This document shows positions 39,590 to 45,165 of a DNA stretch of 64,000 nucleotides, piece by piece (within the stretch, counting starts at the first letter, position 1; the number at the start of each line of letters is the position of its first letter). Under the pieces are notes generated by a model. That model was given only the letters and a program-made list of their open reading frames with translations, made no database searches and was not told where the DNA came from. The position numbers and the translations under genes were made by a program. This DNA is from Reyranella soli (GTDB lineage Bacteria > Pseudomonadota > Alphaproteobacteria > Reyranellales > Reyranellaceae), in NCBI RefSeq assembly GCF_007992495.1, contig NZ_BKAJ01000032.1, positions 1 through 64,000 of the forward strand, written 5' to 3'.

Positions 39590-39619
39590 TTGACAGCGCC
39601 ACCGTCGCGGGCTTATACA
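39590..39619 (+). promoter_or_regulatory. Sigma70-type promoter of the attenuator
   Basis: A consensus ttgaca (39590-39595) is followed 18 bp later by tataca (39614-39619). The likely transcription start, 6-8 nt after the -10, falls on or next to ATG 39626, so the transcript would be leaderless. It also lies in the divergent gap from murA. Confidence 0.65.
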
Positions 39620-39625
39620 ATAACC

Positions 39626-39676
39626 ATGACCACGAACCTGCTCCAGAAGGGTTGGTACTTTACGCTGCTGAAATAG
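39626..39676 (+). CDS. Attenuator leader peptide MTTNLLQKGWYFTLLK
   Basis: This 16-codon frame encodes consecutive Trp-Tyr-Phe (codons 10-12) and ends just before the alternative hairpins. It has no Shine-Dalgarno sequence and is probably translated from a leaderless transcript. Charged-tRNA levels for the aromatic amino acids would set ribosome position. The peptide itself probably has no function beyond that; the case is structural and untested. Confidence 0.6.
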   Translation: MTTNLLQKGWYFTLLK

Positions 39677-39733
39677 GCGGCGCGAAGGGTTGTGACCTGA
39701 CAAAGCCGCCGCTTCCCGGCGGCTTCTGTGTTT
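39676..39733 (+). ncRNA. Transcription attenuator (antiterminator/terminator pair)
   Basis: GGCGGC at 39676-39681 can pair with GCCGCC at 39705-39710, which is also the 5' arm of the terminator (AAGCCGCC 39703-39710, loop gcttccc, GGCGGCTT 39718-39725, then ctgtgttt). A ribosome stalled at the W-Y-F codons would leave the first arm free and favour read-through, while one at the stop codon would cover it and favour termination. This is the classical trp-type logic. Confidence 0.6.
39703..39733 (+). terminator. Attenuator terminator
   Basis: An 8-bp perfect stem aagccgcc/ggcggctt with a 7-nt loop is followed by ctgtgttt, a moderately U-rich tract. It lies 48 bp before the first acetyltransferase gene. 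Confidence 0.65.
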
Positions 39734-39780
39734 CTGGAAAGGGCCTCCGGGCCGCGGCGGGACCGCAAACGGAGGACGAG

Positions 39781-40233
39781 ATGTCGATCATTGAAGCTGA
39801 GCATAGAACGGCGTTGCCGCCGTCGATACGCGTGCGCCTGGCGGGTCCGCGTGACTGCGAGGCGCTTGTCGCATTGCTCGACGAGCCTGCCCATGCGCGC
39901 GAACAGGTGCTGACGTGGCTCGAGACGCCGGGCACGACGCTCCTGGTGGCGCAGAGCGAGATCGGTGTGCTGGGCGTCGCCGTGCTGCTGACGCGCATCA
40001 TGCCCAAGCCGGGCGGCGGCATGCACAAGGTCGTCGAAGTCGACAACCTTGTGGTTCATCCGGACCAGCGTGGCCAGCGGATCGGACGGCGCCTGTTGGC
40101 GGCCGTTGTGGAATGGGCACGCCAACGCCGCGCCGCGCAGGTCGAGGCCGTCGTCGGCGAGGGGGATGCGAGACGCTTCTACGAAAGTTTCGGTTTTGCG
40201 GCGGCCGCCGATCGGCTGGTGCTGGCGGCGTGA
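39781..40233 (+). CDS. GNAT family N-acetyltransferase
   Basis: The 150-aa protein has GNAT motif A in VDNLVVHPDQRGQRIGRRLL (acetyl-CoA binding) and the C-terminal FYESFGF. It lies downstream of the W-Y-F attenuator, so the acceptor may be an aromatic amine or amino acid, by inference only. ATG 39781 follows ggaggacgag. It overlaps the next gene by GTGA. Confidence 0.9.
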   Translation: MSIIEAEHRTALPPSIRVRLAGPRDCEALVALLDEPAHAREQVLTWLETPGTTLLVAQSEIGVLGVAVLLTRIMPKPGGGMHKVVEVDNLVVHPDQRGQRIGRRLLAAVVEWARQRRAAQVEAVVGEGDARRFYESFGFAAAADRLVLAA

Positions 40234-40561
40234 GCTGCGGCCCGGTTCGCATCCGCCAAGCGACCATGGACGACTACGACGCCCTGGTCGCGCTGTTCGA
40301 CGAGCTGGACGAATTCCAACGGCTGGCGCGGCCGGACGTCTTTCGCCGCTTCGACGGGCCGGCGCGCACCCGCAGACAGATCGAGGAGTGGCTCACCGGC
40401 GTCGGCTCGACGGTGCTGGTCGCCGAGCTGGATAGGATTCGCGGGGGCAGGGGGCGAGCCATGTCGGCGTGGCCGTGCACGCCTTCAATCGAAATGCGCG
40501 CAGATTTTACGAACACCCCGGCTTTGCACCGTCGATCGATCGATTAACGCTCGCTCTGTGA
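40230..40561 (+). pseudogene. Degraded second GNAT acetyltransferase
   Basis: The first part (from GTG 40230, MDDYDALVALFDELDEFQ onward to VLVAELDRIRGG) looks like a GNAT N-terminal half. The expected end, AVHAFNRNARRFYEHPGF followed by a stop at 40559-40561, is present in another frame. The central motif A for acetyl-CoA is missing, so an internal deletion with frameshift has probably destroyed the gene. The initial frame runs on to a stop at 40545-40547 as a nonsense tail. Confidence 0.75.
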
Positions 40562-41589: not shown

Positions 41590-41601
41590 ACGGGGACCGT
41601 G

Positions 41602-44600
41602 ATGGCATACGATGGTGAGGCAGACCGGCTGCCGCCGGTATCTTCGGGACTTGCAACCTCCGTGCAGGCCCATCTCGGCCGGGCGTCACGCTTCGTCGAC
41701 GGCACGACGCGCAACTGGTCGCTGTTCTTCTTCTTCCGGATCCTGTCAACGGCCCGTCTGACGGCGAACCTGAAGCAGATTGCGCTGGCGCTCGATGCCG
41801 AGGCCGCGGCCGGCGTCGCGCCGGCCAAGCTGGACGACCCGCAGGCGCCGGCTCAGCTCTTTCTGGATTGGCTGAAAATCCTCGTCGAGGCCAAGTCGGA
41901 CGACTTCTGGAAGACCTTCAGGACGGAGTGCGAGAAGGCGGGTATCCAGATGCCGGCGCAAGCCGGCCCCGACCAGCAAGCGTACGAGTTCCTCTTCCAG
42001 GCGATCGAGGACTTTTCGAAAGGCGCATTCACTCGACTGCCGGCAGGCTTCACCGCGCCGATCAAGGCAGACGTTGCACGGGCGGCGTATGTCACGCTGT
42101 CGAACCCGAGCAACTTTAATGCCTTCGTGGCGAAGTTCGGCAACACCGCCGCTGCCGCCGGCCGCACGGCGTTGTCGGGCGGGCTCCTGGGGACGTTCGC
42201 CTACGAGCTGTTCCGACAATTCGCGCCGGCACAGGCTGGGCCGAAGGACGGCGTCGTCCGGCCCGCCGTGCTACGCAGCGAGGCCGTGGAAACCGGGCTG
42301 GCGCGCGACCGTGAGCAGGTCGAGAAGCAATGGGATCCGGTTCCGATCAATTTCGCCTTCACCTTCCCGGGTCTGAAGGCGCTGCAATTGAGCGAGCCGA
42401 CGCTCGCTTCATTTCCCGAAGCCTTCAGGCAGGGCATGGCGGCGCGCGCCGATCGGCTTGGCGACATCGGCCCGAGCGCGCCGGAGAATTGGGAGGGAGT
42501 CCTCGGGCTCGACTGTGTGCACGGCTACTTCACCGGCGGCTATCTCGTCGATGGCGACGACCAGCCGATCTCGGAGGATTCCCGTCGACGGCTGCGCGAC
42601 GATGTAAGCGCCTTCAACGACGGTACCGGCACCAACGGGTGGGGCGAGACGCTGCGCACCATCATGACGCTGTTGTGCCTGCCGCTGGGTATCGAGATCC
42701 TCCATGTCGAGCTCGGCGAAGATCCCTATCATGTCGACAGGAACGGACGGGTCGTCCGCCCACCGTATCGCATGGAACATTTCGGTTTTCGCGACGGCAT
42801 TAGCCAGCCGTTCGTCGACATGAACCTCGGCGATCCGCTCCCGGGTGGTGGCACGCCAAGTCGCAACCGAACCTGGACGCCGGTTGCTCATGGCGAGATC
42901 TACCTCAGTGAGCGGGACGAGGACGGCAACGAGCATCATCTGCCCATTCACAAGCTGCTGCGGGAAGGCAGTACGTTCCTGGTCTTCCGCAAGCTCGAGC
43001 AGGACGTCGCGGCGTTTCGTGCCTATCTGGCGAGCCAACGCCCCAACGACCATGCCGCCCAGGACAAGCTCGCCGCGCAGTTCGTCGGACGCTGGCCGAA
43101 CGGCACGCCGCTGACCGTGGCGCCCGATGCACCACGGGATCTGGGAAGCGATCCGGACGGGCTTCTCAACGATTTCCGCTATGCCGCGGATGATCCGCAA
43201 GGACGGCGTTGCCCTCTCGGGTCGCATACCCGCCGGACCAATCCGCGCGATATCGGCGGTACCAACGACGTGCGTCGCCATCGCCTCCTGCGCCGCGGCA
43301 TGGCCTATGGCGGTTCGTTGCTGCCGATGGATTCGCCGGACGATGGTCGCAAGCGGGGCCTGTTGTTCATTGCCGCGAACTCGCGCCTGGACCTGCAGTT
43401 CGAGGTGATCCAGGGCGACTGGATCAACAAGGGTGAGATCCTGGGCCAGGCCGGCCTCAATCGCTGTCCTTTGACCGGCGCCAATCTCGGCAGGCCGACC
43501 GATTCCTTCCTCGAAAGCGGCGCCGTGTCGCCGGTGACGGGCCTGCCGCCTTTCGTGATCACGCGCGGCGGCGACTATTTCTTCGCCCCTGGCGTCAAGG
43601 CCATGCGCGAGCTCGCGAATGGCGAGAAATTCGCCGTCGACGCGGCGGACTTGCCCTACGAGGGCTACAGCATGGGCGACGCCATGGCTCCCGCGCTTCT
43701 CGACGAGAGGCGGATCAAGGGCTATGCCGGCCAGATCTTCGCAGGAGCAAAAGACGTCGTGCGTGTCGGGATGCCGTCAGCGGCTGCCGGTGATCCCGGG
43801 GCTGCGCCGGTCGCGTTCGTGGCCCGCGTTGCCCACGTCAAGCAGGCGCTCAGCATGCGGACTGATGCGGCCGGCCAGATGATCACCTCGGTTGCTCATT
43901 ACCAGGAGGCCACCCGGACCATCAGCACCGGCCAGGACATGATCGTCAGCACGCAGCCGGACGCTGTCACAGGCGCGAAGCGTGCGCTCATGATCAAGAT
44001 CCTGGAAGCAGGCTGGGCGGCGCTGTCGACTCCCCAGGAGTCCGTCTATGTGCGCCTGGCGCGGCTGACCAAGCGGAACATCGAAGCGACGCTGCGGCGA
44101 ACAGCGTCCCACCGGACCATCGACATCGTCTATGACCTGGGATCCGTCACGACCTACAACGTGATCAGCGAGTTGTTCGGCACACCCGGTCCGGACTGGT
44201 TGACCGAGATGGCGATCGCCTTGCGCTTCTCTCGCCAGCATCTGACCCAGATCGATCCGGAATGGCTTGCCGCCATCAAAGGCGGCAAGCCCGAAGACGT
44301 CGGCTTGGCGACCTGGCAGGTCTGGTCGATCCTGATGTTCGTCGACATCGTCGGCAACTACCTGCAGCAGGAGGAGCTGAAGGCGCTCGGTGTGCAGGCA
44401 GGCCGGGAGTTCCTGACGCATATCGACACGCTGATCGTAAAGGCCAGGGTGCAGCGACTGCCGCCGCAGGCCAACCTGCTGGCGGCGTTCGTATCTCTGG
44501 AGGCGACGTTCGCGAACCCGACCCAACCAAATGCCCTGTCGGTCGAGGCCTACTATGGCCTGGTCCGCATGCTGCTGCTGGAAGTCGCAAGCTCGGCGGT

Positions 44601-45165
44601 CGTCATTGCACCGACTCTGGGTGCGGTCGTCCATACGGCGTTGACTGCCGGCATCGATCTATCGTCGCTCATCCAACTGATCATGAAGGTGACGCCGTCG
44701 CAGGCGAAGTTCGACGAAGGCATCGAGCGCCTGCTCTACGAGACCTGGCGGCTAAATCCCACCGTCAAGCTGCTGATGCGGCGCGCCAATCAGGATGAGC
44801 AGTACGGCAAGGACACGGTCAAGAAAGGCGACTGGATTGCAGCTCTCATCGCCGCCGCGTGCTTCGATCCCGTTGCCTTCGACCAGCCCAAGCAGTTCTC
44901 GCTCGATCCCATCCTTCCCGGACCGAAGCGAAATCTCGGGGATTACCTGCTGTTCGGCGACGCCCAGGCACCCGGCCGCCTTTGCTGGGGCAGGGACAAG
45001 CTTGCGCTCTATCTCCTCACGGAGTGCCTCAAGGCGGCAGGGCGGCTGAAGGGACTGAAGAAGGTCGCGGGCGCCGCCGGCGAGCTCAAGAAGATCGCAC
45101 AGGTGAACGTCGGGCTGTCGACGCGGTTCGTCAGTGTTCTGCCGGACTGGCCAAAGAAACCCTGA
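41602..45165 (+). CDS. Fusion of Dyp-type peroxidase and cytochrome P450-like domain
   Basis: This is one 1187-aa protein with an unknown helical N-terminal region (about 1-220), a Dyp-type peroxidase domain (about 230-720) with the GFRDGISQP motif (Asp399) and heme-binding His543 (LGSHTRRTNPRD), and a C-terminal P450-like domain (about 790-1150) with ExxR (Glu1048, Arg1051 in YETWRLNP) and a heme-thiolate Cys1129 (PGRLCWGRD). Numbering counts the upstream GTG as residue 1. The P450 region lacks the usual FxxGxxxC spelling and looks divergent. Two heme domains in one chain suggest peroxide handling coupled to substrate oxidation, as in fungal PpoA-type fusions, by analogy only. ATG 41602 is chosen; the start is weakly supported. 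Confidence 0.8.
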   Translation: MAYDGEADRLPPVSSGLATSVQAHLGRASRFVDGTTRNWSLFFFFRILSTARLTANLKQIALALDAEAAAGVAPAKLDDPQAPAQLFLDWLKILVEAKSDDFWKTFRTECEKAGIQMPAQAGPDQQAYEFLFQAIEDFSKGAFTRLPAGFTAPIKADVARAAYVTLSNPSNFNAFVAKFGNTAAAAGRTALSGGLLGTFAYELFRQFAPAQAGPKDGVVRPAVLRSEAVETGLARDREQVEKQWDPVPINFAFTFPGLKALQLSEPTLASFPEAFRQGMAARADRLGDIGPSAPENWEGVLGLDCVHGYFTGGYLVDGDDQPISEDSRRRLRDDVSAFNDGTGTNGWGETLRTIMTLLCLPLGIEILHVELGEDPYHVDRNGRVVRPPYRMEHFGFRDGISQPFVDMNLGDPLPGGGTPSRNRTWTPVAHGEIYLSERDEDGNEHHLPIHKLLREGSTFLVFRKLEQDVAAFRAYLASQRPNDHAAQDKLAAQFVGRWPNGTPLTVAPDAPRDLGSDPDGLLNDFRYAADDPQGRRCPLGSHTRRTNPRDIGGTNDVRRHRLLRRGMAYGGSLLPMDSPDDGRKRGLLFIAANSRLDLQFEVIQGDWINKGEILGQAGLNRCPLTGANLGRPTDSFLESGAVSPVTGLPPFVITRGGDYFFAPGVKAMRELANGEKFAVDAADLPYEGYSMGDAMAPALLDERRIKGYAGQIFAGAKDVVRVGMPSAAAGDPGAAPVAFVARVAHVKQALSMRTDAAGQMITSVAHYQEATRTISTGQDMIVSTQPDAVTGAKRALMIKILEAGWAALSTPQESVYVRLARLTKRNIEATLRRTASHRTIDIVYDLGSVTTYNVISELFGTPGPDWLTEMAIALRFSRQHLTQIDPEWLAAIKGGKPEDVGLATWQVWSILMFVDIVGNYLQQEELKALGVQAGREFLTHIDTLIVKARVQRLPPQANLLAAFVSLEATFANPTQPNALSVEAYYGLVRMLLLEVASSAVVIAPTLGAVVHTALTAGIDLSSLIQLIMKVTPSQAKFDEGIERLLYETWRLNPTVKLLMRRANQDEQYGKDTVKKGDWIAALIAAACFDPVAFDQPKQFSLDPILPGPKRNLGDYLLFGDAQAPGRLCWGRDKLALYLLTECLKAAGRLKGLKKVAGAAGELKKIAQVNVGLSTRFVSVLPDWPKKP

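Follow-up and report, generated by a model that had tools for sequence, protein, structure and literature searches.

A putatively leaderless Trp-Tyr-Phe leader before a GNAT acetyltransferase gene in Reyranella soli and its relatives is probably a ribosome-mediated attenuator

We analysed a 64,000-nucleotide stretch of the Reyranella soli genome (contig NZ_BKAJ01000032.1, hereafter the window), in which a short leader open reading frame (ORF) with consecutive Trp, Tyr and Phe codons precedes a gene for an acetyltransferase of the GNAT family. Judged from sequence and comparison with relatives, this leader is very likely a cis-acting, ribosome-mediated attenuator that would turn the GNAT operon on when charged Tyr, Trp or Phe tRNA is short. 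Amino-acid attenuators are textbook regulators and are expected before genes that make or charge the amino acid concerned; the GNAT is not a biosynthesis gene. No earlier description was found in the literature searched, most subscription journals lying outside that search. The features of the locus, with the proposed pairing segments numbered 1 to 6, are:

39590-39595 and 39614-39619, forward strand: leader promoter, TTGACA and TATACA with an 18-nt spacer, by direct reading
39626-39676, forward strand: leader ORF MTTNLLQKGWYFTLLK, 16 codons with stop TAG, by direct reading and from 68 leaders
39653-39661, forward strand: control codons TGG TAC TTT (W, Y and F, codons 10-12)
39663-39669, forward strand: segment 1, CGCTGCT, 5' arm of protector stem 1:2
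39676-39682, forward strand: segment 2, GGCGGCG, 3' arm of 1:2 and 5' arm of antiterminator 2:3
39688-39697, forward strand: small hairpin inside the 2:3 loop, GGTTGTGACC (GGTCATGACC in most relatives)
39703-39712, forward strand: segment 3, AAGCCGCCGC, 5' arm of terminator 3:4 and 3' arm of antiterminator 2:3
39715-39725, forward strand: segment 4, CCCGGCGGCTT, terminator loop end and 3' arm
39743-39751, forward strand: segment 5, GCCTCCGGG, anti-Shine-Dalgarno arm, 5' arm of 5:6 and proposed ON-state partner of segment 4
39754-39757 with 39763-39766, forward strand: inner stem of the mask hairpin, GCGG with CCGC
39770-39775, forward strand: segment 6, CGGAGG, Shine-Dalgarno of GNAT1, masked by segment 5
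39781-40233, forward strand: GNAT1, intact acetyltransferase of 150 residues (Pfam PF13508/PF00583)
40230-40561, forward strand: GNAT2, remnant of a second acetyltransferase with an internal deletion and a frame change, intact in relatives

Orthologues of GNAT1 occur in most same-genus genomes and were picked by protein alone, independently of the upstream DNA. Leader, promoter and hairpins are present at all 30 loci fetched first (the window and 29 in other same-genus genomes) and at 17 of 17 further loci for which upstream DNA was available, among them loci from four other genera of the family, so that the leader is found at 47/47 protein-selected loci whose upstream DNA is readable. A strict DNA pattern scan over one genome per species (84,980 species) returned 68 matching stretches, 63 of them with the terminator hairpin. 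Fifty-eight of these 63 loci read into a GNAT and the other five reach the end of the stretch first. The 63 loci look like members of one family, Reyranellaceae, the matching records being those of Reyranella, Enhydrobacter aerosaccus, Vineibacter terrae and variously named metagenome-assembled genomes (MAGs). WYF is built into the pattern-selected loci, a bias of which the 47 protein-selected loci are free. Matches in G346 (before dapF), Glycomyces, a Bacillales MAG, Undibacterium and an Anaerolineae MAG were set aside as chance, as they come without the hairpin or the GNAT. The leader was not found in seven same-genus genomes that lack this GNAT, an empty answer that alone proves little. Moreover, no aromatic leader was seen before trpE, class II DAHP synthase or the main tyrS in the few Reyranella-type genomes checked, nor before trpE of the window's own genome.

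The initial annotation had described a promoter running straight into ATG 39626. Direct reading of the window agrees, with 6 nt between the end of TATACA and the ATG, and this spacing is nearly fixed among relatives (6 nt from the -10 box to the start codon in 59/68 leaders). The -35 box is TTGAC followed by A, C, G or T in all 68 leaders, and a Shine-Dalgarno-like motif 5' of the leader ORF occurs in four of the 68. An automated promoter scan passed over this site solely on account of its rule for the -10 box, as TATACA has no T at position 6. Transcription would thus start at or next to ATG 39626, with the ribosome loading on a leaderless start. A divergent murA-like gene of the EPSP-synthase family (PF00275; 38251-39564, reverse strand) starts 26 bases from the leader promoter; the genes upstream of the leader differ among relatives.

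The 16-residue peptide with consecutive Trp-Tyr-Phe, likewise read directly, is kept among relatives. W10-Y11-F12 is constant in all 68 distinct leaders, each of which ends in TAG and has 16 codons if the frame is taken to begin nine codons upstream of Trp; in two of them the start lies one codon further on. The Tyr codon is TAT or TAC, a silent change only, and the Phe codon is always TTT. Residues 2-9 differ completely between genera and residues 14-16 vary as well; codon 14 is Ser, Pro or Leu, and in most alignment columns the pairing to G in stem 1 survives these changes. A constant WYF between variable flanking residues suggests that these codons serve to be read, rather than to yield a peptide that is of use in itself. 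The GNAT leader has one codon each for Trp, Tyr and Phe and no runs of them, codon runs being usual in most known attenuators.

We computed ribosome footprints for every codon, with the 3' edge of the ribosome assumed to lie 13 nt beyond the first nucleotide of the codon in the A site. When the ribosome is at W, Y, F or T, it covers 4-7 bases of arm 1 and leaves GGCGGC wholly uncovered; anywhere from codon 15 to the stop, it covers all of GGCGGC. The aromatic codons thus occupy positions where a stall would antiterminate. This is the geometry of classical attenuation that had been proposed for the locus: by computation, a stall at the control codons would free segment 2, and reaching the stop would cover it.

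GGCGGC lies at 39676-39681, and its first G doubles as the last base of the TAG stop. That it can pair with the 5' arm of the terminator, as noted before, is seen in the sequence and in the presence of 2:3 in all leaders tested; stems 1:2, 2:3 and 3:4 each fold in every one of them. As for the claim of a perfect terminator stem, the terminator-like stem AAGCCGCCG/CGGCGGCTT (39703-39725) is indeed fully paired, but the T-rich tract that follows it, to 39735, is interrupted (CTTCTGTGTTTCT) and weak in the window. All relatives retain a 3:4 stem with a T-rich stretch behind it, and the T-runs of several are better. In a 31-row alignment, 98% of the cells in 1:2 and 3:4 are paired and four pairs show two-sided change; none of 500 shuffles reaches any of these measures, although kinship can inflate the counts. 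Compensatory changes are seen in 1:2 of leader L014 (ACA with GGTG) and in 3:4 of genus g26 (A-U to U-A). The antiterminator 2:3 is nearly invariant and without covariation of its own (cognate versus swapped, p=0.11), because both its strands serve two stems. The closing pair of the small hairpin in its loop is found in 49 of 63 leaders (37.5 expected). A long-range pairing of the 5' end, ATGACC with GGTCAT, was rejected, as it is present in some leaders and missing in others. Lack of conservation of the peptide or the pairings in relatives, the outcome that the initial annotation had named as speaking against it, was looked for and not seen: WYF, the spacing and both pairings are kept across several genera.

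The protector stem 1:2, a mask over the Shine-Dalgarno of the GNAT and a 4:5 pairing were absent from that annotation. The Shine-Dalgarno is held in a CCTCCG/CGGAGG pairing (5:6), and the 3' side of the terminator, CCCGGCGGC, matches the complement of the mask GCCTCCGGG except for one C-U mismatch. In two related leaders described below, the 4:5 match is CCAGGG with CCCUGG (before a second tyrS) and GGUCGG with CCGACC (before an S4-domain gene); in both cases the two sides differ from those of the window yet pair. We compared cognate with swapped complementarity over 15 leaders and repeated the test with 11 representatives. Cognate pairs beat swapped ones for 3:4 and 5:6 (p<0.0001 each, 15 leaders) and for 4:5 (p=0.0009; 0.00065 with 11 representatives), and for 1:2 the values are p=0.015 and, with 11 representatives, 0.075. 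Four off-model pairs show no cognate advantage (p=0.11-0.69, 15 leaders). By this comparison the complementarity of 1:2, 3:4, 4:5 and 5:6 is lineage-matched, 4:5 being no better than swapped in several GNAT leaders (g278, one of g26, f94). On average, no more than a few kcal/mol separate the global ON and OFF states, so that the outcome would depend on kinetics. We infer that 4:5 forms in cells, and the matched pairings suggest that a six-segment cascade switches termination and translation together.

In the mechanism that we propose, the stalling of the ribosome, the folding order and the identity of the amino acids are inferences. When aromatic aminoacyl-tRNAs are plentiful, the ribosome would reach TAG and cover segment 2, the terminator 3:4 would form, and in any message that reads through, the Shine-Dalgarno of the GNAT would be masked by 5:6. 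With no translating ribosome, 1:2 and 3:4 would form and the operon would also be off. A ribosome waiting with W10, Y11, F12 or T13 in its A site would break 1:2 and leave segment 2 free, upon which 2:3 would form and termination would be avoided. Once segment 4 is no longer bound by segment 3, its pairing with segment 5 could free the Shine-Dalgarno. The OFF state would consist of 1:2, 3:4 and 5:6, and the ON state of 2:3 and 4:5 with a free Shine-Dalgarno.

We searched 289 and 385 alphaproteobacterial genomes and two smaller groups with covariance models of the leader, which detected related leaders outside this family:

Genus g95, family f94: WYF leader before a GNAT
Genus g176: WYF or YYYWF leader before a small S4-domain protein
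Family f157: AYF leader before an S4-domain protein
Family f106: VYF leader before a second tyrosyl-tRNA synthetase (TyrRS)
Families f146 and f71: LYY leader before prephenate dehydrogenase (tyrA)

Tyr is always among their control codons, which lie at or close to positions 10-12. Of the S4 assignments, that of the f157 protein is clear and the remaining ones are weak. For the relatives before tyrA and the second TyrRS, the downstream gene serves synthesis or charging of the sensed amino acid. Homologous leaders with Tyr codons before tyrA and the other genes make aromatic supply, probably tyrosine foremost, the best reading of the signal, and they support the view that the attenuator would sense it. 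The ordinary tyrS copies in the genomes checked are without the leader. Genome G247 (L155, C1:598568-599925) has two TyrRS genes with the VYF leader before one only, and the VYF-led copy may be a spare or inhibitor-resistant synthetase. At five loci (L171, L172, L175, L176 and L203) a stand-alone S4-domain protein of about 90 residues, weakly similar to the C-terminal domain of TyrRS, stands under the same attenuator. We also noted a possible aromatic leader with a weak score (..GRFYDRWYIPAA, then the stop) before class II DAHP synthase in another family (L159; G158:C11:2943-3031), and an imperfect run of CCATAGG repeats about 200 bases upstream of tyrS (L186, G129). Covariance-model matches in G030 contig 13 (the second match there) and G330 contig 1 are ordinary terminators. 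Somewhat tentatively, we suggest that these leaders form a distinct alphaproteobacterial attenuator class, with a leaderless ORF, Tyr-centred codons at about 10-12 and a six-segment cascade before tyrA, a spare TyrRS, S4 or GNAT genes, which would respond to impaired aromatic tRNA charging.

Several other explanations have to be weighed against an attenuator that senses tRNA charging. Points that speak against this reading are the interrupted T-run, the near-invariance of 2:3, the single codon per amino acid, a target gene outside biosynthesis together with the lack of such a leader before trpE, class II DAHP synthase and the main tyrS in the few Reyranella-type genomes checked, and the closeness of the ON and OFF energies. 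The hairpin alone is weak evidence, since GC-rich inverted repeats are common and 1.5 terminators of such grade are expected by chance in the stretch scanned; the case thus rests on comparison. It is the comparison that refutes a chance origin, in which a random short ORF would happen to lie before an ordinary terminator-like hairpin: all orthologous loci are conserved while their upstream neighbours differ, and the stems covary, which makes this account extremely improbable. A switch that acts on translation only, with 3:4 as a spacer structure and 4:5 opening 5:6 as in erm- or cat-type attenuators, would explain the poor T-run, the strong covarying Shine-Dalgarno mask and the 4:5 complementarity. 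It is unlikely, as every relative retains 3:4 and the T-rich stretch and several have better T-runs. Alternatively, the leader RNA or its peptide might act mainly in trans, as do rnTrpL and peTrpL in Sinorhizobium meliloti (PMC7298713), which have the same leaderless layout of 14-16 codons and control codons at 10-12, and the terminated RNA would be a small RNA. The tight linkage to one downstream GNAT and the matched Shine-Dalgarno mask point to a role in cis, however, and we regard a mainly trans-acting leader as very unlikely.

Two further alternatives concern what the ribosome would respond to. In the tRNAs that read UGG, UAY and UUU, A37 is modified to i6A/ms2i6A by MiaA and MiaB, and in enteric bacteria attenuation of trp and phe is relieved by defects in miaA or miaB. 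The control codons might thus sense tRNA modification rather than charging, in which case the same switch could be triggered by slow decoding under iron or sulphur limitation; all three conserved codons start with U, each occurring once and not in a run. However, the sensing window shows no preference for other codons that start with U (Ser UCN, Leu UUR, Cys), and the YY, VYF, AYF and YYYWF leaders before tyrA, the second TyrRS and S4 genes fit amino acid sensing, so we rate modification sensing as quite unlikely. The leader peptide could also be a drug-sensing arrest peptide and the GNAT the enzyme that inactivates that drug; many GNATs are drug-modifying enzymes, and weak NCBIfam matches to such families exist here. 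Yet the nascent chain before W10 is unconserved between genera, which argues against chain-specific arrest, and aromatic control codons persist across families in which the gene behind the leader is a different one. We therefore consider an arrest peptide highly improbable. Sensing of aromatic tRNA charging in cis remains our preferred reading.

Comparison with known systems places the leader close to the classical trpL type, but outside rhizobial trpL and the Rfam Trp leader. According to PMC7298713 (and Bae and Crawford 1990, cited there), a leaderless trpL attenuator of trpE(G) exists in S. meliloti and other rhizobia, in line with the leaderless rhizobial trpL transcripts mentioned in the initial annotation. 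The S. meliloti trpL starts at its ATG and has WWW at codons 10-12 (PMC7298713). Like the leader studied here, whose transcript would also begin at the leader ATG, these are alphaproteobacterial, with a terminator/antiterminator switch, and the leader is short (14-19 codons, control codons near 10-13). Of the features of the trpL type, our locus has a short leader ORF with control codons, mutually exclusive antiterminator and terminator and a putative protector stem. In contrast to rhizobial trpL and the Rfam Trp leader, however, it has single Trp, Tyr and Phe codons, stands before a GNAT and not before trpE, and gave no family match in an Rfam scan of the window; the Shine-Dalgarno mask and the 4:5 pairing are additional. 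The enteric ilvGMEDA and thrABC leaders are multivalent classical attenuators with codon runs that control the synthesis pathway. They share with our leader several amino acids per leader and a ribosome-controlled choice between 1:2, 2:3 and 3:4, but here there are no codon runs and the GNAT is not a biosynthesis gene. The enteric his leader has six segments, the last pair being the terminator. Both leaders have a chain of alternative pairings among six segments, whereas here the chain would extend beyond the terminator into the Shine-Dalgarno. As in a translational attenuator, the GNAT Shine-Dalgarno lies in a predicted hairpin whose mask has an alternative partner (5:6 and 4:5, both lineage-matched). 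In ermC, cat and vmlR, as proposed here, a ribosome stalled on a short ORF alters access to the downstream gene; those systems respond to antibiotics, whereas here codons 10-12 are aromatic and the preceding chain is unconserved. Bacillus subtilis vmlR combines transcription and translation attenuation (PMC9226507).

The leader had been said to precede GNAT genes. This stands for GNAT1, which is intact, and not for GNAT2, whose start overlaps the GNAT1 stop (GTGA) and which is broken here. The AlphaFold model of GNAT1 has a pLDDT of 88 and generic GNAT neighbours in a fold search; Pfam, NCBIfam, PDB sequence and fold searches gave no substrate hint beyond a generic GNAT. A drug- or tRNA-acetylating identity for GNAT1 found weak matches only, which we set aside as evidence. 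Further downstream, an ORF of 1188 residues (41599-45165, forward strand) has a DyP-type peroxidase match in its N-terminal part, and inspection by eye suggests a P450-like heme motif close to the C-terminus; it is possibly a fused heme enzyme.

Cells probably turn the acetyltransferase on during aromatic amino acid shortage, and the 4:5 pairing suggests that a single stall decision could control termination and translation together. If the wider class is real, the trigger could be, for example, natural compounds that inhibit the shikimate pathway or aromatic tRNA synthetases and that the GNAT might acetylate. With a probable, well-conserved aromatic attenuator on an acetyltransferase throughout a family, the sensor offers a testable lead to the role of the enzyme.
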